Source: a bacterium (GTDB lineage: Bacteria > JAUVQV01 > DATDCY01). Taken from it: DNA of 54,964 nucleotides. A program made the position numbers and the translations under genes. The notes beneath the pieces are model-generated. The model saw only the letters and a program-made list of their open reading frames with translations. It made no database searches and was not told the DNA's origin. Where the stretch lies: contig DATDCY010000155.1 of assembly GCA_036524115.1 (NCBI GenBank), positions 1 to 54,964 on the forward strand. The letters run 5' to 3'. Shown one piece after another: positions 42,476 through 54,964 of this stretch (position 1 is the stretch's first letter; each line of letters starts with the position of its first letter).

Positions 42476-43723
42476 GTGGGGATGAGAAGCGCTCTGCTGC
42501 TCTTGCTGCTGCTCCTGACGCCGTTGCTGTCCGCCGACGAGGCGCGCGCCGGGACCGAGGGGACGTCACGCACCTATCTACGCTCCTGGGAGTCCAACGA
42601 CGATGAGCGCCACGCTCCCCTCGCAGAATTTCTCGAGTTCTCCTCCGCCCTCGGGAAGGGCGGTGCGTTCTCCCTGAACGTCGGCGGCTGGGGACGGGTC
42701 GACCTCGGCGAGGAGACGAACGGCGACACCACCAGGGGAGAACTGCAGTACGGGCATCTCGCATGGCACGGCGCCACCGGGAACCGTGTCGCGCGGCTCG
42801 GACGCCTCGAGGTCACGGGCGGGGTGGCGTTGGCCGAGCGGTTGGACGGCCTTTCGTTCGGTGGCGACCTTGCCGGCGGCTTGTCGGCCGCGGCGTACGT
42901 CGGCGTTCCCGTGGAGACCGACGACGACGGACGCGATGGCGATCTCATCTACGGCGCCCGCATCGCGCACCGGCGGTACGGACGCTGGGACGTCGGCGCC
43001 TCGTACCTCAAGGAACGGAATGACGGGGCGGACCTGCGCGAGGAAACGGGATTCGACATCTTCCTTCGCCCCTTCCGGATGGTGACGCTGGACGGAAGGT
43101 CTGCCTACAGCATCGATCAGTCGGCCTGGATGGAGCACCACTACCGGGTCAGCGTCGTCCCCCTCCCGGCCCTCACGCTCGGCGGGGAATACCAGGACGT
43201 GGACTACAAGGCCTTTTTCCGCGCCGCGGACGTCACCGCCTTCCTCCCGGCAAACCTCGCCGGCGAGGAGGGGATGCGCCTGGCGGGCGTCGAGGCGTCG
43301 TACGCATTCACGGTCGGCCTGACGGCCTCCGTCTCGTGGCGGGACTATGCCTACGACGTCGCGGGGGACGCCCAGGCGGCCGGTGCCGGACTGCGGTACG
43401 CGAGCGGCAGCCTGGGCGCCGGCCTCTCGTACAACCGGGTGGACGGGGACTCCCCGAACCTGCGCTACCGGGAGTATCGCGGTTACGGCACCTGGCGGCC
43501 GGGACGCTTCGACCTCGCGCTGGATCTCGGCAGCCAGCACTACGACGAGGCCATCGACGGCGAGGACGTCGGGACCACCGGGACCGTGGCCGTGGGCTTT
43601 GCGCTGCGCCCGGCGCTGCGCCTCGCGGCGGACCTCAGCTACACGGCGGACCCGTACTTCAGCAGTGACGTGCGGGGGATGATCAAGCTCGTCTACGGCT
43701 TCGCCGCCGGGCCGAAGCCATGA
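42476..43723 (+). CDS. Outer-membrane beta-barrel protein (porin-like) of the cytochrome cluster
   Basis: A 415-aa protein with a signal peptide (about 1-25, ending EARA). Its mature part is a regular series of amphipathic strands (e.g. FSLNVGGWGRVDLG, GELQYGHLAWHG, YGARIAHRRYGRWDVGASYL, GLSYNRVDG) ending in an aromatic strand, MIKLVYGF. There is no haem motif or CxxC. Translationally coupled to a pentahaem lipoprotein (ATGA at 43720) and followed by two more cytochromes, it resembles the porin part of porin-cytochrome conduits. Sequence family is not recognised. The start is GTG 42476 or ATG 42482. Confidence 0.72.
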   Translation: MGMRSALLLLLLLLTPLLSADEARAGTEGTSRTYLRSWESNDDERHAPLAEFLEFSSALGKGGAFSLNVGGWGRVDLGEETNGDTTRGELQYGHLAWHGATGNRVARLGRLEVTGGVALAERLDGLSFGGDLAGGLSAAAYVGVPVETDDDGRDGDLIYGARIAHRRYGRWDVGASYLKERNDGADLREETGFDIFLRPFRMVTLDGRSAYSIDQSAWMEHHYRVSVVPLPALTLGGEYQDVDYKAFFRAADVTAFLPANLAGEEGMRLAGVEASYAFTVGLTASVSWRDYAYDVAGDAQAAGAGLRYASGSLGAGLSYNRVDGDSPNLRYREYRGYGTWRPGRFDLALDLGSQHYDEAIDGEDVGTTGTVAVGFALRPALRLAADLSYTADPYFSSDVRGMIKLVYGFAAGPKP

Positions 43724-43734
43724 GGAGGTGCGCG

Positions 43735-44178
43735 ATGAGACAACGACCTGCACGAATCCTCCGTGTCCTCGCGCTGCTCGTGGCGTTCGCCGCCCTCGGG
43801 GCCTGCGCGGCCGGCAAGAGTCTGCAGACCACCCACCCGGAAAAGGTCGAGGGCAGTCCCCGCTGCAGCGAATGCCACGACGACTGGCGGAACATCTACG
43901 ACCACACGCCGGCGTTCGCCCGGGCACACGGCGCCCCGGCCTCGCGCGACCGCGACCTCTGCGGGAGCTGCCACCGGGCGTCCTTCTGCGCGGACTGCCA
44001 CGCCTACCGCGACGAGATCGCTCCCGCCGAAAAGTACGCCGACGCCCCGGAGCGCATGATGCCGCACCCGCGCTCCTACGTCGCCCAGCACCGCATCGAC
44101 GGACGTCTCAACCCGGCCGCCTGCTTCCGCTGCCACGGCCGCACGAGTGAAGCGAGGTGTCAGCAATGTCACCGCTAG
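43735..44178 (+). CDS. Pentahaem c-type cytochrome lipoprotein
   Basis: A 147-aa protein. The signal peptide has a lipobox (ALGAC), so it is probably membrane anchored. Five CxxCH motifs are present (CSECH, CGSCH, CADCH, CFRCH, CQQCH). ATG at 43735 is preferred to the overlapping ATG at 43720 because a GAGGAGG site lies 6 bp before it. The 3' end overlaps the next cytochrome by 13 bp. In a porin-cytochrome complex it could be the periplasmic-side or barrel-embedded cytochrome. Confidence 0.88.
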   Translation: MRQRPARILRVLALLVAFAALGACAAGKSLQTTHPEKVEGSPRCSECHDDWRNIYDHTPAFARAHGAPASRDRDLCGSCHRASFCADCHAYRDEIAPAEKYADAPERMMPHPRSYVAQHRIDGRLNPAACFRCHGRTSEARCQQCHR

Positions 44179-45404
44179 CTGGAGTGGGCCGGTTGCGGCG
44201 CAGCCTCCCCTGGCTGCTCCTGCTCGTCGTGGCGGTCGCGGGCTGCAGCAAGTCGCGAAATGACGTGCTCTTCACGCCGGGGGTCGGTCATCCCGAGGAC
44301 TGGATCGCCGACCACGGAAAGGCCTACCGGAAGGCCCCCGCGCGCTGCGTCGAGTGCCACGGGACGGACCTCAAGGGCGGGGTCTCCGCCGTGAGCTGCT
44401 TCAGCGCGAGTTTCAAGGGCACGGCCTGTCATCCGGGCGGTCCGGCCACGTTCATCCACCCGGAAGGCTGGGGTGCCTGGCAGCGGCACGGTGCCGCGGC
44501 CAAGGCCGCCCCGGGGCCCTCCGGCGGTTTCGCCTGGTGCGAGAGCTGCCACGGGACGGATTTCGCCGGCGGGATCGTCAACACGCCGTGCGCGCGCTGT
44601 CACGGGGTGCCCGCTCCCCACCCGCGCGCGCCGTGGCGCGGCGGTCCGCAGACGCACGCCACGACCAACACCGCCAACGCCCCGGTCTGCGCCCAGTGCC
44701 ACCGCCACGCCGGCTCGGGCGGACAGCCGGGGTGCTTCAACGGCACCCTGTGCCACACCCAGCGCGGCGTGCACCCGGGAGGCTGGGGCGACCCCACGAG
44801 CCACGGGCCGGCCGCCAAGGGCCGGCCGGGGCCTTCCTCGGGCTTCCTCTTCTGCACGGGGTGCCACGGGTCCGACTACCGCGGGAACGGCGCGGGAGTT
44901 TCCTGCTTCCCCTGCCACGGGGTCGATGCCCCGCACCCGCCCTCGCCCTGGCGCGCCCGCTTCACCCACACCACCACCGACCAGGGCAACGCCCCGGTGT
45001 GTCTCGCCTGCCACCGCAACGCTCATCCGCCGGCCGGCGCGGCGCCCGGGTGCTTCAACAACACCCTGTGCCACCCCCACCCGCCAGGCTGGGCCAGTCC
45101 CGATCTGCACGGCGCCGGCGCCAAGGAACGGCCCAGCCCGACGCGGGGCTTCCCGGCCTGCCAGAGCTGCCACGGGAGGCTCTTCAGCGGGAGCGTGCCG
45201 GGGGGAAGCTGCTATCGGTCCGCCAGCTGCCACACGGCGCCGACGCCGCACTCGCCCGCCCCGTGGCGGCCGCCGGGACGGACGCACACGACCACGCAGG
45301 ACGGGAACGCCGGGGTCTGCGGTCTCTGTCACCGCCGGCCCAGCGCGCCACCCAGTCTGCCGGACAACTGCTTCAACAACTCTCTGTGCCACACGCAACG
45401 GTGA
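44166..45404 (+). CDS. Multihaem c-type cytochrome lipoprotein with CX2CH and CX5CH motifs
   Basis: A 412-aa lipoprotein (lipobox VAGC) made of three tandem repeats of roughly 95 residues. Nine canonical CxxCH motifs are visible, plus four CX5CH (CFNGTLCH, CFNNTLCH, CYRSASCH, CFNNSLCH) and one CX9CH near the N-terminus. In the repeats the second motif of the GTDFAGG-type unit is sometimes CX2CH (CARCH, CFPCH) and sometimes CX5CH (CYRSASCH). ATG at 44166 (GAGG site) is taken over GTG 44157. It is probably periplasmic or outer-membrane and part of an electron conduit with its neighbours. Confidence 0.85.
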   Translation: MSPLAGVGRLRRSLPWLLLLVVAVAGCSKSRNDVLFTPGVGHPEDWIADHGKAYRKAPARCVECHGTDLKGGVSAVSCFSASFKGTACHPGGPATFIHPEGWGAWQRHGAAAKAAPGPSGGFAWCESCHGTDFAGGIVNTPCARCHGVPAPHPRAPWRGGPQTHATTNTANAPVCAQCHRHAGSGGQPGCFNGTLCHTQRGVHPGGWGDPTSHGPAAKGRPGPSSGFLFCTGCHGSDYRGNGAGVSCFPCHGVDAPHPPSPWRARFTHTTTDQGNAPVCLACHRNAHPPAGAAPGCFNNTLCHPHPPGWASPDLHGAGAKERPSPTRGFPACQSCHGRLFSGSVPGGSCYRSASCHTAPTPHSPAPWRPPGRTHTTTQDGNAGVCGLCHRRPSAPPSLPDNCFNNSLCHTQR

Positions 45405-45444
45405 GGGCCTGGCCTGACTAGGCAAAGGCGAAGGAGGAACCAGC

Positions 45445-48141
45445 ATGAAAGCACTACGCGGTGGGAACAACAGACGACTCTGGGCCACAGCCGTGGCGAC
45501 GGCGTTGCTGCTCGTCATCGGCGGGGTCGCCACTTCGCTCGCGGAAGCATCGACGCTGCGCGTCACCGTGAACGGCACGATCGCCCAGCGCCGCAGGGTC
45601 ACCGTCCAGGTCGTGGGCAAGGACCTCGGGAGAACGGCGACGCGGGTCACGGGCGACACCGGGGTGGTGAGCTTCGCCGGCCTTCCCGGCGACACCTACA
45701 CCGTGACACCGTCCCGGTACGGCTTTCGCTTCCAGCCCGCGGCGCGGCTCCTCGCCCTCGCCAACGGGGTGACCATGGCGACCACCTTTGTGGTGAGCCC
45801 GTTGCCCGCCGTCGGCAGCCTCGCGGTGAGCGAGACGGCGGTCAGCATGGCTCAGACCCTCTCCACGACCATTGTCGTGACCGCGCTCACGGGCGCGGGC
45901 GACGGGATCGCCGGGGCGCCGGTACATGCCGCAAGCTCCGCCCCCTACTACGTGAAGGTCACGCCCGCGGTCGCCACCACCGATGCCCTCGGGCGGGCCG
46001 TGTTCACGCTCACCGCCTTCGGCTCCCTGGCGTTCTCGAACCCGGCGCCGGAAGTGCAGCCGGTGGTTGCCACCGCGACGATCAACTTTGCGAGCGGGGG
46101 CTGGCGCGGAACCACGGTCAGGAGAGCCCAGACACTCGTGTCCGTCACCAGGGCCCTCGAGGGGGAGCTCTGGGTGACCTCGGGCCACGCGGACGCCAAC
46201 GGCGAGCCCTTCAGCCACTGGGACAAGGACGGCGCGATACCGACGTCGTGCGCCCGCTGCCATAGCAAGCCCGGGTATCTGGAGTACGTCGCCACCGGCG
46301 CCATCGCGAACCCGGTGCCCGTCGGCACCGTCGTCGACTGCCTGCTCTGCCACGACCCGACTTCCTTCGCCCTCACACAGGTGACATTCCCCTCCGGGGT
46401 CACGGTGACCGGCCTCGGGCACGAGTCCATCTGCTCGACCTGCCATCAGGGGCGGGAGTCGAGCGTGAGCGTCGACCGCAGGCTCGCCGGCAAGCCCGAG
46501 GACACGATCGACACCTCCATCAGCTTCACCAACATCCACTACTTCGCCGCGGCGGCCACCATGTTCGGAGGCGTCGCCAAAGGCGGCTATCAGTACCCCG
46601 GCCAGGTCTACGACCAGCGCCTGCTGCACGTGTCCGCCGCGAACGTCTGCCAGGAGTGCCACAACCCGCACTCGCTCGCCCTGGACCTCCAGCTCTGCCG
46701 CACCTGCCACCCCGCGGCCGTCGACTACGCCGGCGTCAAGACCATCCGCATGGCCGGGTCGACCCAGGACTACGACGGGGACGGGAACGTCACCGAGGGG
46801 ATGGCGGCCGAGCTCGCCGGTGTCGCGGCGAAGCTCTACGAAAAGATCCAGGAGTACGGCACGGCGCAGGGCTTCCCCATCGTGTACGACGCGGCCACGT
46901 ACCCCTATTTCCTCTATGCCGCCGACCGCACCGGTTACAAGTCCTTCACGCCGCGGCTGCTGAAGGCCTGCTACAACTACCAGGTGTATCAGAAGGACCC
47001 CGGGACCCACGCGCACAATCCCAAGTACCTGGTGGAGATCATGTACGACTCCATCCAGAGCCTCGCTTCCTTCCTGCCGAGCGGTCCGGTGGCGGGCCTG
47101 GCGCGCAACGACCTCAACCACTTCGATGCCGCCAGCGAGGCCTTCCGTCACTGGGACAACGACGCCGACGGTCTTGTCGACGCGGCCTGCACGCGCTGCC
47201 ACTCCGGGGAGGCGGGCTTCCGCTACTACATCGAAAACGGGTTCACGAACTCGCCGAATCCGCTGCCGCCGGCCTCACGCATGTCATGCGAGACCTGCCA
47301 TACGGGAACGAACTTCGCATCGGCCCCGCCGCTGCGCCTCGTGTCGCAGGTGACCTTCCCGAGCCCGCCGACCGACCCGACGACCATCCTCAACGATCCC
47401 CTCAACCCCGACGAGTCCTTCATCTGCATCACCTGCCACCAGGGCCGGGAGTCCAAGAAGACGATCGACGTCGCCATCGGGACGATCGGTGACGACGTGA
47501 TGGACCCCTCGCTGAAGTTCCTGAATGTGCACTACCTGTCGGCCGGCGCAAGCCTCTACGGCAAGCAGGCCGGCGTGGGGTACGAGTACCCGGGCATGAC
47601 GTACGCCCTCAAGTTCAACCACTGGGGCGGTCAATCGGCGTGGTGCGCCTACTGCCATGACATCACGGCGACGCGGCACACCTTCCTGCCCCGCCTGACG
47701 CCGGTCTGCGCGAACTGTCACACGGAGATCACCGGCGGCGACATCGAGACGATCCGCCTCAACCGGCCGTACGACTACGACGGCGACGGGAACACCGCGG
47801 AGAAGCTGATCGACGAGATCCACGGACTGCGCGACGACCTCTATACCGCGATGCGCGGCTACGCCCGGACCACCCTCGGCTTCCCGATCGCCTACAGCCA
47901 GACCCAGTACCCGTACTTCTTCAACGACGCGAACGACAACGGCATCGTCGACCCGGGTGAAACCAGCTTCGATCACTGGACCCCGCGCCTTCTCAAGGGC
48001 GCGCACAACTTCCAGATGGCCTTCAAGGAGCCTGGCGACTGGGCCCACAACACGAACTACACCGCCCAGATCATGATCGATTCCATCCGCGATCTCAACG
48101 GAGGAGCCCCCGACAACTACCAGCGCCCGGTCGGCTTCTGA
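45445..48141 (+). CDS. Decahaem c-type cytochrome with Ig-like N-terminus
   Basis: An 898-aa exported protein with a signal peptide about 1-34 and no lipobox. Residues 35-230 hold two beta-sandwich domains (a carboxypeptidase-regulatory-like one and a Big_1-like one). Ten CxxCH motifs then occur as two five-haem modules (about 260-430 and 565-775) with the same order (C..CHS, C..CH, C..CHQGRES, C..CH, C..CH). Each module is followed by a calcium-loop-like DYDGDGN and a conserved YPYF...FTPRLLK block. It is a candidate cell-surface terminal cytochrome of the adjacent porin-cytochrome set. A strong terminator follows. Confidence 0.88.
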   Translation: MKALRGGNNRRLWATAVATALLLVIGGVATSLAEASTLRVTVNGTIAQRRRVTVQVVGKDLGRTATRVTGDTGVVSFAGLPGDTYTVTPSRYGFRFQPAARLLALANGVTMATTFVVSPLPAVGSLAVSETAVSMAQTLSTTIVVTALTGAGDGIAGAPVHAASSAPYYVKVTPAVATTDALGRAVFTLTAFGSLAFSNPAPEVQPVVATATINFASGGWRGTTVRRAQTLVSVTRALEGELWVTSGHADANGEPFSHWDKDGAIPTSCARCHSKPGYLEYVATGAIANPVPVGTVVDCLLCHDPTSFALTQVTFPSGVTVTGLGHESICSTCHQGRESSVSVDRRLAGKPEDTIDTSISFTNIHYFAAAATMFGGVAKGGYQYPGQVYDQRLLHVSAANVCQECHNPHSLALDLQLCRTCHPAAVDYAGVKTIRMAGSTQDYDGDGNVTEGMAAELAGVAAKLYEKIQEYGTAQGFPIVYDAATYPYFLYAADRTGYKSFTPRLLKACYNYQVYQKDPGTHAHNPKYLVEIMYDSIQSLASFLPSGPVAGLARNDLNHFDAASEAFRHWDNDADGLVDAACTRCHSGEAGFRYYIENGFTNSPNPLPPASRMSCETCHTGTNFASAPPLRLVSQVTFPSPPTDPTTILNDPLNPDESFICITCHQGRESKKTIDVAIGTIGDDVMDPSLKFLNVHYLSAGASLYGKQAGVGYEYPGMTYALKFNHWGGQSAWCAYCHDITATRHTFLPRLTPVCANCHTEITGGDIETIRLNRPYDYDGDGNTAEKLIDEIHGLRDDLYTAMRGYARTTLGFPIAYSQTQYPYFFNDANDNGIVDPGETSFDHWTPRLLKGAHNFQMAFKEPGDWAHNTNYTAQIMIDSIRDLNGGAPDNYQRPVGF

Positions 48142-48275: not shown

Positions 48276-50132
48276 TCAGGGGCTGACGTCGAAACTCTTG
48301 GACGCGCTCCAGCTCTTCCACGTGTCGAGGTAAGCGCGCACGCGCCAGGAATAGACGCCCGCAGCCACGACCAGCGAGGGGGTCGCGGTGCAAACGCCCG
48401 TCGCGCAGGCCGCTGTGCCGACGACCCTGTTGCAGAAAGGCGTGCCGCCCGCGGAGATCTCGACCTGGTACTTCGACGCGCCGGGGACCTTCGTCCAGCG
48501 GTAGGCCGGCGTCGGGTCGGCAATGGTTCCGCCCGGCGAGAGAGGCCTGGGCCGCTCCAGCTCGACGATCGCCCTCTTCAGGTTCGGGCGCGGCCCGATG
48601 TGCTGCGACGCAGGGAAACCCGGCGCATCCTGCTGCGGGCTGCCCGTGGAGGAGAGCAGGAAACGGACGCGCGCGGGCAGCAGGAGCGATCCCCGTTGCC
48701 GGGTGATGCCGCTGAGCAGCGCGGCGGCGCCGGCCACGATCGACGCTGCGCTCGAGGTGCCGGAGAAGGAATCCGAATACCACTGGTTCACGCCGGAGCC
48801 GGCATGGAGATCGCCGTACCCGGTCGTGACCACCCGGAATCCCCAGCCCTGGACGTCCACCCGCCTGCCGAAGCTGGAGTAACTCAGGCGGGAACGATCG
48901 TTCTGCGTGTACCCCGGCGGCGCCCCCGCGCCGACGATGATCGCACCGGAGTCGTTCGCCGTCGTGCCGAAGACTCCCAGGCAATTGGGCGAGTCCAGGT
49001 CCACTGCGCCGTTGCCAGCCGCCTGGACGACGATCCGCTTCCCGGCGGTCGCCGTCTTGATCGCGTCACGGACCGACCAGATCCACTCCAGCGGTCCATA
49101 CCCGCTGCTGCACGCCGAGGTCTGCTGCTCAATCAGGATCACATCCCCGGGCGAGGTGGCCAGCCGCGCTGCGTTGATCGCGGCCGCTGGCGCGTACGGG
49201 CGGCAAGAGGTGTTCGGGCACGGGGAGGCGAACTTGAGCGAGGCCGCCGAGGCAATGCCGCGGACGCCGAGGCCGTTGGCGACCCCCGCCAGTTCGCCGA
49301 GGACAGCCGTGCCGTGGTCGGATCCCCAGCCCTGGTAGAAAACCCCGCTGATGAGCGGCACGGACGGCAGGTCCTCGTGGGCCGGATTGAAGCTGTACTC
49401 GACGTCCACGATCGTCACGCGACCACCGCTTCCGTCGGCTTTCGTCCAGGCGAAGGTGGCGTCGATGCCTTCGGGGGCGGTCTTGACGTAGCCCTGCAGC
49501 GTGCTGAAGTCAGGGGTGGATGTCTCGGCCATGCCGGCGAAGGGAGACATCCTGGCGATCCCTGGATCGCCCGGCGGCGGCGACGGCAGCGGCGCGGCGT
49601 AGGCGATCTCCACCTCGGGCAGGGCGTTGAGAGCGTCGATCAGCGACTCGATGTCGGCCCCCGGGGCAACCCTCAAGCGGTACCACAGGTTCAGGTCGGG
49701 CAGCTCCTCCCCGCCCAGTTCCTCGAGGGCGTGCCGCTCCCGTGCGATCTCCGCCTCTGGCTGGGGGAAGAGGCGCTCGACCGCCTCCACGGAGTGCGCT
49801 GACAGCACCGCGTGCACGCCGACGAGATCCCGCCCGTCGAGCGAGGTCAGACATCCCTCTCGAAGCCGGACTTGCCCGCCCTGGGCGAATTTGACCTCGA
49901 TCGCCTCGCGCGACTGTCGCGCGAGGAGCCGGGTGTGCGCCGGCTTGGGCGGGGGCAGCCGCGCCCGCAGACCCGGGGCCGCCTCGGTGGCGCGGACCGG
50001 AGACGGGAGCGGCGCCAGGACAGCCACCCACAAGGCGACGATCGCGGCCGCCCCGCGGCGACCACTCGAGGCGCGGATGCCCTGCGCCCCACCGGGGGAC
50101 GGTGCGCCGTGCTCAGCGAGCGCCGGCGCCAC
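48276..50132 (-). CDS. Exported subtilisin-like serine protease (S8 family)
   Basis: A 618-aa protease with a signal-like hydrophobic segment at about 28-48. The S8 domain (about 205-480) has the triad D243 (TIVDVEYSF), H273 (SDHGTAVLGE) and S460 (SGTSSAAS), with oxyanion N374 (QAAGNGA). A propeptide-like region (about 75-185) precedes it and a fibronectin-III-like C-terminal domain (about 525-618) follows. The DVE rather than DTG motif around Asp is atypical. The GTG start at 50132 lies 6 bp after the metF stop, and an internal start is possible. Confidence 0.85.
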   Translation of the reverse strand: MAPALAEHGAPSPGGAQGIRASSGRRGAAAIVALWVAVLAPLPSPVRATEAAPGLRARLPPPKPAHTRLLARQSREAIEVKFAQGGQVRLREGCLTSLDGRDLVGVHAVLSAHSVEAVERLFPQPEAEIARERHALEELGGEELPDLNLWYRLRVAPGADIESLIDALNALPEVEIAYAAPLPSPPPGDPGIARMSPFAGMAETSTPDFSTLQGYVKTAPEGIDATFAWTKADGSGGRVTIVDVEYSFNPAHEDLPSVPLISGVFYQGWGSDHGTAVLGELAGVANGLGVRGIASAASLKFASPCPNTSCRPYAPAAAINAARLATSPGDVILIEQQTSACSSGYGPLEWIWSVRDAIKTATAGKRIVVQAAGNGAVDLDSPNCLGVFGTTANDSGAIIVGAGAPPGYTQNDRSRLSYSSFGRRVDVQGWGFRVVTTGYGDLHAGSGVNQWYSDSFSGTSSAASIVAGAAALLSGITRQRGSLLLPARVRFLLSSTGSPQQDAPGFPASQHIGPRPNLKRAIVELERPRPLSPGGTIADPTPAYRWTKVPGASKYQVEISAGGTPFCNRVVGTAACATGVCTATPSLVVAAGVYSWRVRAYLDTWKSWSASKSFDVSP

Positions 50133-50138
50133 GGACGG

Positions 50139-51125
50139 CTACGCCTGGGCGAGGGTCGGCCGCGGGTAGAGGCCGGCGCCCTTGACGATCGGCTCCAGGG
50201 CGCTCTCCCACTCGATCGCCATCACGTGCACGCCCTTGACGTGCGGGATGTCGAGAACCTGCTTGATCAGCTCGATCGCGATCTTGATCCCCTCGGCCTC
50301 CTGCAGCTCCTTCATCTTCTTCTTGTCGTCGCCCGCGGCCTCCTTGGCCTTTGCCATGCGCGCGATCAGCTCGGGGGGCACCGAGATCCCGGAGACGGAC
50401 GTGTCCATGTACTTGAGCATCATCGCGCTCTTGGGGACGATGATTCCCGCCAGCATCGCCGTGTGCTCGAAGCAGCCGAGGTCGGCGGCCTTCTTCATCT
50501 GCGAGCGGAAGAGCTCGACGTCGTAGATCCCCTGCGTCTGGATGAAGTCCGCGCCGGCCTTGACCTTCTTGAGCAGGTTGACCGGCCGGAAGTCCATCGG
50601 GTCGCCCAGCGGCGTCCAGGAGGCGCCGATGTGGAACTTCGGGGCGACCTGCAGCTTATCGCCGCCCTGCTGGAGGCCCTCGTCGCGCATCTTCTTGAGG
50701 ATGCCGACGAGCTGGACCGTGTCGATGTCGTAGACGTTCTTCGCCCCCGGGTGCCCCATGAGCTTGCCGGCCTTGCCGAAGGACTGGTGGTCGCCGGCGA
50801 TGCAGAGGCAGTTCTTGATGCCGAGCGCCGAGGCGCCGAGGAGATCGGCCTGCATCGCGATCCGGTTGCGGTCGCGGCAGGTCATCTGCATCACCGGCTC
50901 GAGGCCCTCGCGCGCGGCGACGACGGCCGCAGCGATGCTCGAGATGCGCACGACCGCGGTCTGGCAGTCCGTGATGTTCGCCGCGTCGCAGAAGCCCTTG
51001 AGCTGATGCGCCTTGTGGACGACCTCCGCCGGGTCCGCGGACATCGGCGGCCCGAGCTCGCCGGTGACCGCCGGCTGCCCGCTCGCGATGACTCTCTCGA
51101 GATTGCTCCCGCTCTTCGTCGTCAT
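50139..51125 (-). CDS. metF: Methylenetetrahydrofolate reductase MetF
   Basis: A 328-aa TIM-barrel flavoprotein that reduces methylene-THF to methyl-THF. VTGELGPPMSADPAEVVHKA, NITDCQTAVVRISS, QMTCRDRNR, CIAGDH and GADFIQTQGIYD are recognisable MTHFR blocks (Gly-Pro replaces the usual EL.PP start region of the E. coli enzyme). Position after hdrA-mvhD-metV and the 4-nt overlap with metV indicate the HdrA/MvhD-linked reductase used in the methyl branch of the Wood-Ljungdahl pathway. Confidence 0.93.
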   Translation of the reverse strand: MTTKSGSNLERVIASGQPAVTGELGPPMSADPAEVVHKAHQLKGFCDAANITDCQTAVVRISSIAAAVVAAREGLEPVMQMTCRDRNRIAMQADLLGASALGIKNCLCIAGDHQSFGKAGKLMGHPGAKNVYDIDTVQLVGILKKMRDEGLQQGGDKLQVAPKFHIGASWTPLGDPMDFRPVNLLKKVKAGADFIQTQGIYDVELFRSQMKKAADLGCFEHTAMLAGIIVPKSAMMLKYMDTSVSGISVPPELIARMAKAKEAAGDDKKKMKELQEAEGIKIAIELIKQVLDIPHVKGVHVMAIEWESALEPIVKGAGLYPRPTLAQA

Positions 51126-51814
51126 TTCTTCGCCTCCGCCTCCGCGGGAGCAGCGATGTGCTCCAGGACGATCTTCTTGGGCCCGCCGTCGCGGGCGGTC
51201 GACCAGTTGCGCGGCGGCTGGATCTCGGCGAGCCTGTCCAGCCGGCCGAGCTCCTTCATCCGCTCGACGATCAGGTACCAGGCGCAGTCGATGTCCTTGC
51301 TGACCTCGCACTTGCCCTGGTTGGTGCCGCCGCAGGGGCCGTTCATCAGCGACTTGGAGCAGCGCGCGATGGGGCAGATCCCGCCCGTCAGGTGCAGGAT
51401 GCAGTTGCCGCAGCCGGCGCAGAGCTCGACGAAGACGCCCGCCGCCGGCACCGCGCCGTAGAACGAGGTGTTGATCCCCGGGAAGACCGGGACCTTGCCG
51501 ATCAGCCCGGAGAGGAAGTTCACGCCCACGCCGCACGCGGTGGAGATGACCAGCTCGTACTCGCGCAGCTGCTCGAGGACGGGCTCGAAGTACTCCGGCT
51601 CGCACTGGCGCTGGACCGCCGTGAAGTCGGCCTGCAGCGCGACGCCCTCCTCCGTGGCCTTCATGCGGAGCATCGTGGCGAGGATCTCCGCCTCCTTGGC
51701 GCCCCCGGCGTGGCAGATCGCGACGCAGGTATTGCAGCCGATCACCATCACCTTCTTGAAGCCCTTGACCATCTCCCAGGTTTCCGGGAACGGTTTCTGC
51801 GACCCGACGATCAT
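51122..51814 (-). CDS. metV: MetV-like methylenetetrahydrofolate reductase C-terminal (zinc/Fe-S) domain protein
   Basis: A 230-aa protein of the MTHFR_C family, rich in cysteine (IGCNTCVAICHAGG; ISTACGVGVNF; CAGCGNCILHLTGGICPIARCSKS; GPCGG...KCEV). In acetogens MetV forms the core MetVF complex with MetF and mediates electron entry to its FAD. ATG at 51814 overlaps the mvhD stop and the 3' end overlaps metF, both by ATGA, so the three are tightly coupled. Confidence 0.9.
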   Translation of the reverse strand: MIVGSQKPFPETWEMVKGFKKVMVIGCNTCVAICHAGGAKEAEILATMLRMKATEEGVALQADFTAVQRQCEPEYFEPVLEQLREYELVISTACGVGVNFLSGLIGKVPVFPGINTSFYGAVPAAGVFVELCAGCGNCILHLTGGICPIARCSKSLMNGPCGGTNQGKCEVSKDIDCAWYLIVERMKELGRLDRLAEIQPPRNWSTARDGGPKKIVLEHIAAPAEAEAKK

Positions 51815-52323
51815 GACTGGCTCCCCTGGCACTGCTGTTTCAGTTGCGCCGCATGGATCGGCGTGGGCCCGAGGGCGCGCACCTTCTCCACGAACTCCGT
51901 GCAGATCTGCGCCCAGCGCGGGCCCATCGCCGCCGAGAGATTGAACATCTCCAGCCGGTCCGGGTCGATGCCGAGCTTCTTCAGGAGCGTCTTCACGTAC
52001 TCGATCCTTCTCGCCGCGAACGCATTACCTTCCAGGTAATGGCATTGTCCCTTGAGTCAGCCGGCGACGAAGACGCCGTCGACCCCCCTCTCGAACGCCC
52101 GCAGCAGGTGCATGTGGTCGAGCTTGCCGGTGCAGGGCAGCCGGATGACCTTGACGTTCGGCGGGTACGACAGGCGCATCACGCCCGCCAGGTCCGCCGC
52201 CGCGAACGCGCAGTAGTGGCACGCGAACGCAATGACGTTGGGCTCCCAGCCGACCGGGACGGGCTGCTTCGCCTCGATCGAGGGGACCGCGGCCGGCGCC
52301 GCGGCCTCAGCGACAGTCGTCAT
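51811..52323 (-). CDS. mvhD: MvhD-type hydrogenase iron-sulfur subunit, probable selenoprotein (UGA = Sec89)
   Basis: The frame from ATG 52323 (GAGGAG site) reaches an in-frame TGA at codon 89 (52059-52057) and continues open for 81 more codons to the real stop overlapping metV. Translated through, it is a normal-length (170-aa) MvhD protein: FACHYCAFAAADLAGV, VIRLPCTGKLD, GVDGVFVAG-U-LKGQCHYLEGN, then KTLLKKLGIDPDRLEMFNLSAAMG. MvhD proteins have GCxxGxCHY here, so UGA sits exactly at a conserved [2Fe-2S]-region cysteine. A 7-bp hairpin with GG in its loop lies 15 nt downstream. The protein passes electrons between HdrA and its partners. Selenocysteine is inferred; a nonsense mutation is the alternative. 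Confidence 0.85.
52023..52041 (-). promoter_or_regulatory. Bacterial SECIS-like hairpin in mvhD
   Basis: In mRNA sense CATTACC-TGGAA-GGTAATG, a perfect 7-bp stem with a 5-nt loop. The loop begins 22 nt after the UGA and has G at its second and third positions, within the known range for bacterial SECIS elements. The codons it uses (CAT, GGT, AAT) are rare in this GC-rich sequence. Confidence 0.7.
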
Positions 52324-52334
52324 ACGCTCTCCTC

Positions 52335-54964
52335 CTACGCCTCGACGAGGCCGGGTTCCGATTCGGCCGCCGCGTCGATCATCGCGAAGATCTGGTCGTC
52401 GCGGAAGTTGTTCACCTGGAAGGCCTTCGCCGGGCAGATCCCGGCGCAGATGCCGCAGCCCATGCACTTGACCTCGTTGTGCGAGATCATCCCGTCCTTG
52501 TCGATGTACGGCGAGCCGAAGGGGCAGACCCGCAGGCACGAGAGGCAGGACATGCAGAGCGCGCGCTTGTGCTTGGCGATGATCCCCGAGACCGCGAGCC
52601 GCTCGTGCGAGAGCACGACGCCGGCGCGCCCGGCCGCGGCGAGGGCCTGGCCGATGGTCTCGTCGAGGTTCTTCGGCGCGTGCCCGAGGCCGCAGACGAA
52701 GAGTCCCTCGGAGGGGAAGTCGACCGGGCGCAGCTTCACGTGCGCCTCCAGGTAGTAGCCGTCGGGGTTGCGCGTGACCTTGTACATCGCGCCCACGGCG
52801 TCGGTCGTCGGGTGCGGGCGCAGCCCGGTGGAGAGCACCACGTGGTCCGCGGCGATCTCGACCTCGCGGTCCAGCATCGGGTCGAAGGCGCGCACCGTCA
52901 GCGGCCCCGCGCCCGCCTGCTCGACGACCGGCTTGCGCTCCACGTCGTAGCGCACGAAGAGCACGCCGAGCTCGCGCGCCTTGCGGTAGTAGTCCTCCCG
53001 CAGCCCGTACGTGCGCACGTCGCGGTAGAGGATGACCACCTGGGAGCGCGCGTTGGCCTCCTTGATGCGGATCGCGTTCTTGATCGCGTCCTGGCAGCAG
53101 ACGCGCGAGCAGTACTGGTTCGGCTCCTCGCGCGAGCCCACGCACTGGATCATCACGTAGGAGCCCGACGGCGTCTCGCCCGCCGCGAGCTGCTGCTCGA
53201 GCGCGCGCTGGGTGATGACGCGGTCGCTCTTGCCGTAGAGGTACTCCGTCGGCTGGTACTCGACGCCGCCGGTGGCCAGCACGATCGCGCCGTGCTCGGC
53301 CGTCGCGCCGGTGGTCAGCGTCGTCACGTAGTTGCCGACGAACCCTTCCGTCTTCACGACCTCCGCGCCGAGGTGCACCGTGATCCGCGGGTGCGCCTTG
53401 ACCGCCGCGATCCGGCCGGCGAGGAACGCCGGGACGTCGCCGCCCTCGAGCGTGTAGCGCAGGTTGCGGGCGAGACCACCGAGCTCCTTCTCCTTCTCCA
53501 CGAGATGGACCGCGAAGCCCTGGTCGGCCAGCGAGAGCGCCGTGGTCATCCCGGCGACGCCGCCGCCAATGACCAGGCACGCGGGCGTGACGCCGACCGT
53601 CTCGCTCTGGAGCGGCTCCTGGAGGCGCGACTTCGCGATCGCCATCTTGACGATGCCCACCGCCTTCTTCGTCGCGGCCTCGGGCTGCGCCTTGTGGCAC
53701 CACGAGCACTGCTCGCGGATGTCCGCCAGGTCGAAGAGGTACTTGTTGAGGCCCGCCTCGCGGATCGTCTCCTGGAAGAGCGGCTCGTGCGTCCGCGGCG
53801 TGCAGGAGGCGACGACGACGCGGTTGAGCTTCTGCTCCTCGATGATCTTCTTCATCGACTCCTGGTGGTCCTGGGAGCAGGCGTAGATCGCGTTGGTCGC
53901 GAAGACCACCCCCGGCTGGTGCTTCGCCGCCTCGACCACCTCGTCGATCTTGACCGTGGAGGAGATGTTGATGCCGCAGTGGCACACGAAGACGCCGATG
54001 CGCGGTTCCTGGCCGGTGACGTCGCGCTCGGGCGGCAGCTCCTTCTTCACGACCTCGGTGCCGCGCGCCTCGGAAAGCAGCGCCATCGCGCCGCCGGCCA
54101 CCGCGCTGCCCTGGACCACCGTCTCCGGGATGTCCTTCGGGGCCTGGAACGTGCCGGCCACGAAGACGCCGGGCCGCGAGGTTTCGACGGGCGCGAACCC
54201 GGAGGTCTTCGCGAAACGATAGTCGGTGGCCTCGATGCCGCAGGCCGCAGCCAGCTGCACCGCGTCCTTGTGGGGCTGGAAGCCGATGGAGAGCACGACC
54301 ATGTCGAACGTCTCGTCGACGAGCTCCCCGTTCTCGAGCGCGTGACGCAGCACGAGGTTGCCGGTCCCCGGCTCCTCGCGCACGCTCGAGACCATGGCGC
54401 GCTGGTACTTGACGCCGTACTCGTTCTTGGCGCGCTCGACGTACTTGTCGAAGTCCTTGCCGAAGGCGCGCATCTCCATGAAGAAGATCTTCGGCTCGAT
54501 GTGCGCGTCGTGCTCCTTGGCGATGATCGCCTGCTTGGTCGCGTACATGCAGCAGACCGAGGAGCACCAGGGGTTCGCGTTGTGCGGGTCGCGCGAGCCG
54601 ACGCACTGGATCCAGGCGACCTTCACCGGGTGCTTGCCGTCCGAGGGACGCTGCACCACCCCCTTGGAAGGACCGGAGGCCGAGAGGATGCGCTCGAACT
54701 GGATCGAGGTCACGACGTTCGGCCAGCGCCCGAGGCCCAGCTCGCCGCGCACGCGCCCGTCGTAGAGCTCGAGGCCGGGCGAGAGGATCACGGCGCCGAC
54801 GTCCAGGTCGAACTGCTCCTCGTACGGAGCGTCGTGGACGATCGCCTTGGCGAGGCAGGCGTCCACGCAGTAGTAGCACTCGCAGCAGCCGGCGCAGTTG
54901 AGGCAGCGGCCGGCCTCGGCGAGCGCGACCGGCTCGGGGAAGCCCAGCTCGACCTCGCGGAAGT
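52335..54964 (-). CDS. hdrA: HdrA-like FAD/iron-sulfur subunit, double type (5' end outside window)
   Basis: About 875 residues are visible; the N-terminus is cut. The protein holds two HdrA-like halves. The first has an Fe-S motif (CLNCAGCCECYYCVDAC) and IQCVGSRDPHNANPWCSSVCC. The second has GVFVCHCGINISS, a Rossmann FAD motif VIGGGVAGMTTALSLA, IQCVGSREEPNQYCSRVCC, and two C-terminal 4Fe-4S motifs (CMSCLSCLRVCPFG; CMGCGICAGICPAKAF). Such proteins carry flavin and several Fe-S clusters and can bifurcate electrons with MvhD. The stop lies 11 bp before mvhD. Linkage to mvhD-metV-metF suggests it supplies or splits electrons for methylene-THF reduction. Confidence 0.9.
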   Translation of the reverse strand, partial: FREVELGFPEPVALAEAGRCLNCAGCCECYYCVDACLAKAIVHDAPYEEQFDLDVGAVILSPGLELYDGRVRGELGLGRWPNVVTSIQFERILSASGPSKGVVQRPSDGKHPVKVAWIQCVGSRDPHNANPWCSSVCCMYATKQAIIAKEHDAHIEPKIFFMEMRAFGKDFDKYVERAKNEYGVKYQRAMVSSVREEPGTGNLVLRHALENGELVDETFDMVVLSIGFQPHKDAVQLAAACGIEATDYRFAKTSGFAPVETSRPGVFVAGTFQAPKDIPETVVQGSAVAGGAMALLSEARGTEVVKKELPPERDVTGQEPRIGVFVCHCGINISSTVKIDEVVEAAKHQPGVVFATNAIYACSQDHQESMKKIIEEQKLNRVVVASCTPRTHEPLFQETIREAGLNKYLFDLADIREQCSWCHKAQPEAATKKAVGIVKMAIAKSRLQEPLQSETVGVTPACLVIGGGVAGMTTALSLADQGFAVHLVEKEKELGGLARNLRYTLEGGDVPAFLAGRIAAVKAHPRITVHLGAEVVKTEGFVGNYVTTLTTGATAEHGAIVLATGGVEYQPTEYLYGKSDRVITQRALEQQLAAGETPSGSYVMIQCVGSREEPNQYCSRVCCQDAIKNAIRIKEANARSQVVILYRDVRTYGLREDYYRKARELGVLFVRYDVERKPVVEQAGAGPLTVRAFDPMLDREVEIAADHVVLSTGLRPHPTTDAVGAMYKVTRNPDGYYLEAHVKLRPVDFPSEGLFVCGLGHAPKNLDETIGQALAAAGRAGVVLSHERLAVSGIIAKHKRALCMSCLSCLRVCPFGSPYIDKDGMISHNEVKCMGCGICAGICPAKAFQVNNFRDDQIFAMIDAAAESEPGLVEA

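Follow-up and report, generated by a model that had tools for sequence, protein, structure and literature searches.

The window analysed here, a 54,964-nucleotide stretch of bacterial DNA, ends in the minus-strand genes hdrA, mvhD, metV and metF (Table 1); hdrBC are absent from the contig. The mvhD (flpD/frhD) frame contains a single internal TGA and is otherwise open, and its product reads MTTVAEA...FVAG-U-LKGQCHYLEGN...SQS before the stop. As the sequence-only reading had proposed, the TGA occupies the first Cys position of the GCxxxxCH motif, at codon 89 in FVAG-U-LKGQCHY. Its description of the frame as open and family-like on either side of the TGA also holds: the PF02662 (FlpD/MvhD) match covers residues 30–152 and spans the TGA (E = 3.2e-48). 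The AlphaFold model of the full-length protein has a pLDDT of 84, and its best Foldseek matches are the solved MvhD chains 5odh_D, 5odc_D and 7bkb_F, with a TM score of 0.9 by target length. The gene's own stop codon is a TGA (51813–51811) within the ATGA overlap with metV (start at 51814), an overlap that had been read correctly from the sequence, so that UGA would serve as both stop and selenocysteine codon within one gene.

Table 1 Features of the mvhD locus and the evidence for each.
Feature	Position	Strand	Evidence
metF, methylene-THF reductase	50139..51125	-	PF02219 E=4.7e-33; 74/80 relatives
metV, methylene-THF reductase Fe-S subunit, ATGA overlap with mvhD	51122..51814	-	PF12225 E=1.7e-36; 80/80 relatives
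mvhD (flpD/frhD), predicted Sec at codon 89	51811..52323	-	170 aa; PF02662 and AlphaFold/Foldseek
Predicted SECIS hairpin, 8-bp stem CATTACCT/AGGTAATG, loop GGA	52023..52041	-	perfect inverted repeat, 8/8 complementary
UGA codon predicted to be read as selenocysteine, residue 89	52057..52059	-	TGA in 80/80 relatives
hdrA, 5' end cut by contig end	52335..54964	-	solved HdrA chains, 5odc_A E=1.5e-144

Alignment shows that all five conserved Cys/Sec positions (35, 38, 64, 89 and 94) are present in the window MvhD, and that column 89 is Cys in MetVF-linked orthologues and in the solved MvhDs. The Cys/Sec exchange that the sequence-only reading had suggested looking for is therefore seen. The coding part past the hairpin has a median dN/dS of 0.12 (51 non-saturated pairs) versus 0.03 upstream, which indicates purifying selection. 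Scored against the archaeal VhuD model NCBIfam NF045873, the protein reaches 143.7 bits, below the curated cut-off of 215 bits; by this model it is a relative of VhuD and no VhuD proper.

The hairpin begins 15 nt past the UGA and places its first loop G at 23 nt from it, the arms being 52041–52034 and 52030–52023. The sequence-only reading had described a perfect 7-bp hairpin with GG in the loop; the perfect repeat and the loop (GGA) stand, but the stem is 8 bp long. Bacterial SECIS elements, as defined for bSECISearch, consist of a stem-loop directly downstream of the UGA with a G in the apical loop, and the window hairpin has both characteristics. The contig is 70% GC, and the local shares of the codons involved are low (CAT 0.11, GAA 0.09, GGT 0.07, AAT 0.08 and CAA 0.03), with a joint expectation of about 2e-5 for the six hairpin codons; the earlier remark that these codons are unusual for the genome was thus justified. 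The fold of the single sequence is unexceptional compared with shuffles (z −1.4), and mean fold energy does not separate Sec from Cys genes. Fold energy being uninformative, the case for a SECIS relies on pairing and conservation. The hairpin sequence pattern occurs once in the window; Rfam yielded no match within the window, and a pattern search of viral contigs yielded none.

Scanning 84,980 genomes gave 80 loci, 61–81% identical, all of them in Nitrospirota or Desulfobacterota, and the TGA is present at the codon 89 site in every one of the 80 fetched relatives. Some of these loci come from cultured strains or complete chromosomes: L094 and L102 are isolates with complete chromosomes, L095 is Desulfoprunum benzoelyticum DSM 28570 and L098 is Desulfopila aestuarii DSM 18488. 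When 296 Nitrospirota genomes were sampled evenly, 19 contained a close orthologue (≥ 250 bits), all with the TGA, and the next matches dropped to about 150 bits and correspond to other family members. Among 395 Desulfobacterota genomes, the six closest matches (≥ 235 bits) all carry the TGA, which brings the close orthologues of both phylum samples together to 25 of 25. The family- and phylum-level search around the window's own genome reached one other genome only, which has no close orthologue. Three further Nitrospirota MvhDs (L117, L121 and L122) have Sec89 with no adjoining metV, and their hairpin loops are GGTCA or GGTCC versus TGGAA; the predicted SECIS thus differs at an unchanged Sec site.

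The hairpin follows the TGA through these sequences. In raw counts that ignore relatedness, its inner 6 bp are paired in 79/80 Sec relatives versus 1/29 Cys orthologues beside metVF. The hairpin codons of the relatives are near-invariant at synonymous sites (CAT 80/80, TTC 51/51, CTG 80/80, GAA 75/77 and AAT 79/80), a freezing that is confined to them and does not extend to the codons before or after. Pair 22–32 covaries in 92 Sec genes, again as raw counts, with A-U in 37 (Tyr TAC and Gly GGT), U-A in 54 (Phe TTC and Gly GGA) and one exception, whereas it varies freely in the 29 Cys orthologues, which have the same kind of operon and much the same amino acids. These orthologues are the best sequence control, sharing the protein motif and the operon without Sec and without the hairpin. 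From these comparisons of sequences (TGA conservation, frozen synonymous sites and one covarying pair), the hairpin is judged to be more than chance.

The genome is a metagenome-assembled genome of 3.9 Mb in 374 contigs, 95% complete with 4% contamination. It encodes a tRNA-Sec (anticodon TCA, 71.9 bits over Rfam cut-off), selA (TIGR00474, 595 bits) adjoining selB (TIGR00475, 345 bits) on contig C292, and a SelD above cut-off. The four genes proposed as a check of the reading, selA, selB, selC (tRNA-Sec) and selD, are accordingly all present, and homologues with a stop followed by decayed downstream sequence, another outcome named as contrary to it, were not encountered. SelD itself has an in-frame TGA at CGUAAK, and FdhA has one at CARLUHS; together with MvhD, at least three selenoproteins of independent families are predicted. 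SelB was over cut-off in 33 of the 40 carrier genomes tested among the relatives. The remaining seven yielded fragments or related GTPases only, below cut-off, which may reflect incompleteness.

The neighbourhood is as constant as the codon. In all 80 relatives hdrA lies upstream of mvhD and metV downstream; metF was counted within the piece of each relative examined. The order hdrC-hdrB-hdrA-mvhD-metV-metF is seen in L030, and a folD-like gene precedes hdrC in L025 and L034, names in these loci being given by recognition of the ORF sequences. Another contig of the window's own genome, C131, ends with hdrC-hdrB-hdrA, and its end (L176 5045–5780) overlaps the window end (54229–54964) over 738 bp with 90.8% identity. 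At that identity, C131 would hold either the missing half as it occurs in another strain, the assembly being broken at that point, or a second copy. The HdrA on C131 (L176 3229–5778) carries an insertion that the HdrA of L030 lacks, a GltD-like domain for NAD(P)H binding; on sequence grounds, this would agree with NAD(P)H being the electron donor.

Given the UGA, the hairpin, the machinery, the conservation and the operon, all read from sequence, mvhD is almost certainly a genuine selenoprotein gene, and the operon to which it belongs is probably that of a type IV methylene-THF reductase. The explanation in which we place high confidence is that of a Sec-MvhD decoded via a SECIS in an hdrCBA-mvhD-metVF operon. 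SelB and Sec-tRNA-Sec, held by the hairpin past codon 89, would decode the UGA as selenocysteine, so that a full-length FlpD/MvhD-family protein with a [2Fe-2S] cluster results, the cluster being assigned from relatives. Placed between HdrA and MetVF, MvhD would most likely shuttle electrons between the bifurcating flavin module of HdrA and the remainder of the complex, in the Wood–Ljungdahl pathway; the electron transfer role, the complex and the direction are drawn from characterised relatives. The bacterial Sec-MvhD of a MetVF operon put forward by the sequence-only reading gains support from the machinery of the genome, the conservation of TGA and hairpin, and the hairpin-less Cys orthologues.

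The alternative that survives best accepts the Sec-MvhD and has it serve another Hdr-linked module, the MetVF neighbourhood being incidental. Elsewhere MvhD links HdrA to hydrogenase or formate dehydrogenase (PMC12350162), and the window's own genome holds five other FlpD genes. However, metV adjoins mvhD in 80/80 relatives from two phyla, with a 4-bp overlap in the window, and purification from Moorella has yielded a complex made up of HdrCBA, MvhD and MetVF (Mock 2014, as related in PMC5861303 and PMC8760232), so that service to another module appears improbable. Separately, in contig C88 of the same genome (L016), a second metV-metF pair follows a divergent FlpD-like protein of about 30% identity that has Cys only.

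Two other readings retain the conserved gene and dispense with selenium or with the fusion of its halves. Because the frame is open whatever residue occupies codon 89, the UGA might be read as another residue through a reassigned code or simple read-through. We regard this as very unlikely, since mvhD itself terminates in TGA, the genome has tRNA-Sec, selA, selB and selD, relatives have Cys at position 89, and the hairpin tracks the TGA and not the protein motif. Conservation of both halves would equally suit a truncated MvhD and a separate downstream protein made by re-initiation past the UGA, but PF02662 and the predicted fold span the UGA, and the LKGQCHYLEGN codons, several of them invariant in the alignment, include no ATG; this reading is very unlikely too. 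A pseudogene or a sequencing or assembly error that cuts MvhD at residue 88, which a single contig of a fragmented assembly might bring to mind, has a negligible chance of being correct and is refuted by the conservation of the TGA in all relatives, the complete-chromosome isolates L094 and L102 included, by purifying selection on the downstream half, and by the maintenance of the hairpin at synonymous sites.

The selenocysteine assigned to MvhD is found at one of two positions. The lower-scoring Desulfobacterota matches are mostly MetVF-linked MvhDs with Cys at both sites, Sec89, or Sec38 (CxxU). When the MetVF-linked loci were aligned by tblastn anchoring, the whole set comprised 87 Sec89, 13 Sec38 and 17 Cys proteins, and none with both Sec. 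The Sec38 MvhDs (L136, L139, L141, L143–L145, L152–L156, L158 and L159) are MetVF-linked and from Desulfobacterota; most of their genes have a hairpin GGACCT-GGC-AGGTTC after the UGA, with the loop GGC, at about the same distance as for Sec89. At least six changes of state between Sec89, Sec38 and Cys are counted among the MetVF-linked sequences on a quick tree with long branches. Chain K of PDB entry 9SFI (9sfi_K) has X (non-standard) residues exactly at columns 38 and 89, which are probably two Sec, and would in that case differ from the window MvhD, which has Sec at one position; no paper citing 9SFI was found in the open-access literature searched.

Since Sec and Cys swap only at 38 and 89 in the sequences examined, we think that selenium would tune a redox site formed by cysteines 35, 38, 64, 89 and 94. 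In MvhD relatives a [2Fe-2S] cluster lies near the HdrA flavin, and the final electron step has been called one of unknown mechanism (2025 Elp-Hdr paper, PMC12350162). A more specific and tentative proposal, which we hold as possible though rather less than even, is that residues 38 and 89 form a pair directly engaged in electron transfer, either by ligating the [2Fe-2S] cluster, which would then be a naturally occurring Fe-S cluster with a selenolate ligand, or by forming a redox-active selenenylsulfide, and so supply the missing step from the MvhD cluster to the HdrA flavin. The hint is the occurrence of Sec at 38 or 89 and never at both in this set, together with its presence at both in 9sfi_K if X is Sec.

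Bacterial selenoproteins of this family have been reported before. Sec-FrhD, of the same family as MvhD, was catalogued in 19 bacterial proteins in 2006, including those of Moorella, Syntrophobacter and Syntrophus (PMC1794560); four Sec mvhD genes were described in D. autotrophicum in 2009 (PMC2702500); and in D. multivorans, Sec mvhD was reported and mvhD2 adjoins hdrA2BC (PMC5109826). These resemble the window gene in belonging to the FlpD family, in having Sec for a conserved Cys, in the bacterial SECIS past the UGA and in the hdrA neighbour. They differ in reported context: theirs is either hdrA-frhD-frhG-frhA together with glpC or some other Hdr locus, that of the window MetVF. In a 2026 review the motif appears as CxxU and contains two Sec (PMC13188914), whereas the window MvhD has Sec solely at the other position, GUxxxxC. 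Archaeal SECIS elements are located in the 3' UTR (PMC11227280), unlike the window element inside the coding region past the UGA. The type IV methylene-THF reductase HdrCBA-MvhD-MetVF has been described for Moorella thermoacetica (PMC8760232, PMC5861303), with the gene set and order of the complete relatives found here, and a Sec FrhD and a Sec HdrA are catalogued for Moorella with no locus given (PMC1794560). The sequence-only reading had hinted at novelty; this does not apply to bacterial Sec-MvhD/FrhD as such, known since 2006. It may apply to the MetVF linkage and the alternating Sec position, for which no description was found, the open-access literature yielding no statement of a Sec MvhD linked to MetV or MetVF. 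The strict conservation of Sec in the HdrCBA-MvhD-MetVF context and its alternation between positions 38 and 89 thus seem undescribed.

Gene finders that take UGA as a stop would halve MvhD, an electron-transfer subunit. In genomes of Nitrospirota and Desulfobacterota the reductase would then look defective or partial, and their one-carbon pathway could be misjudged. In these bacteria, a step of the Wood–Ljungdahl pathway would be linked to selenium supply. With Sec found now at one and now at the other of two fixed cysteines, nature supplies variants in which the passage of electrons from MvhD to the bifurcating flavin could be tested.

Elsewhere in the window, positions 43720–48141 hold a run of CxxCH-rich proteins that resemble multihaem cytochromes, followed on the opposite strand by a long, subtilase-looking ORF (48276–50132).
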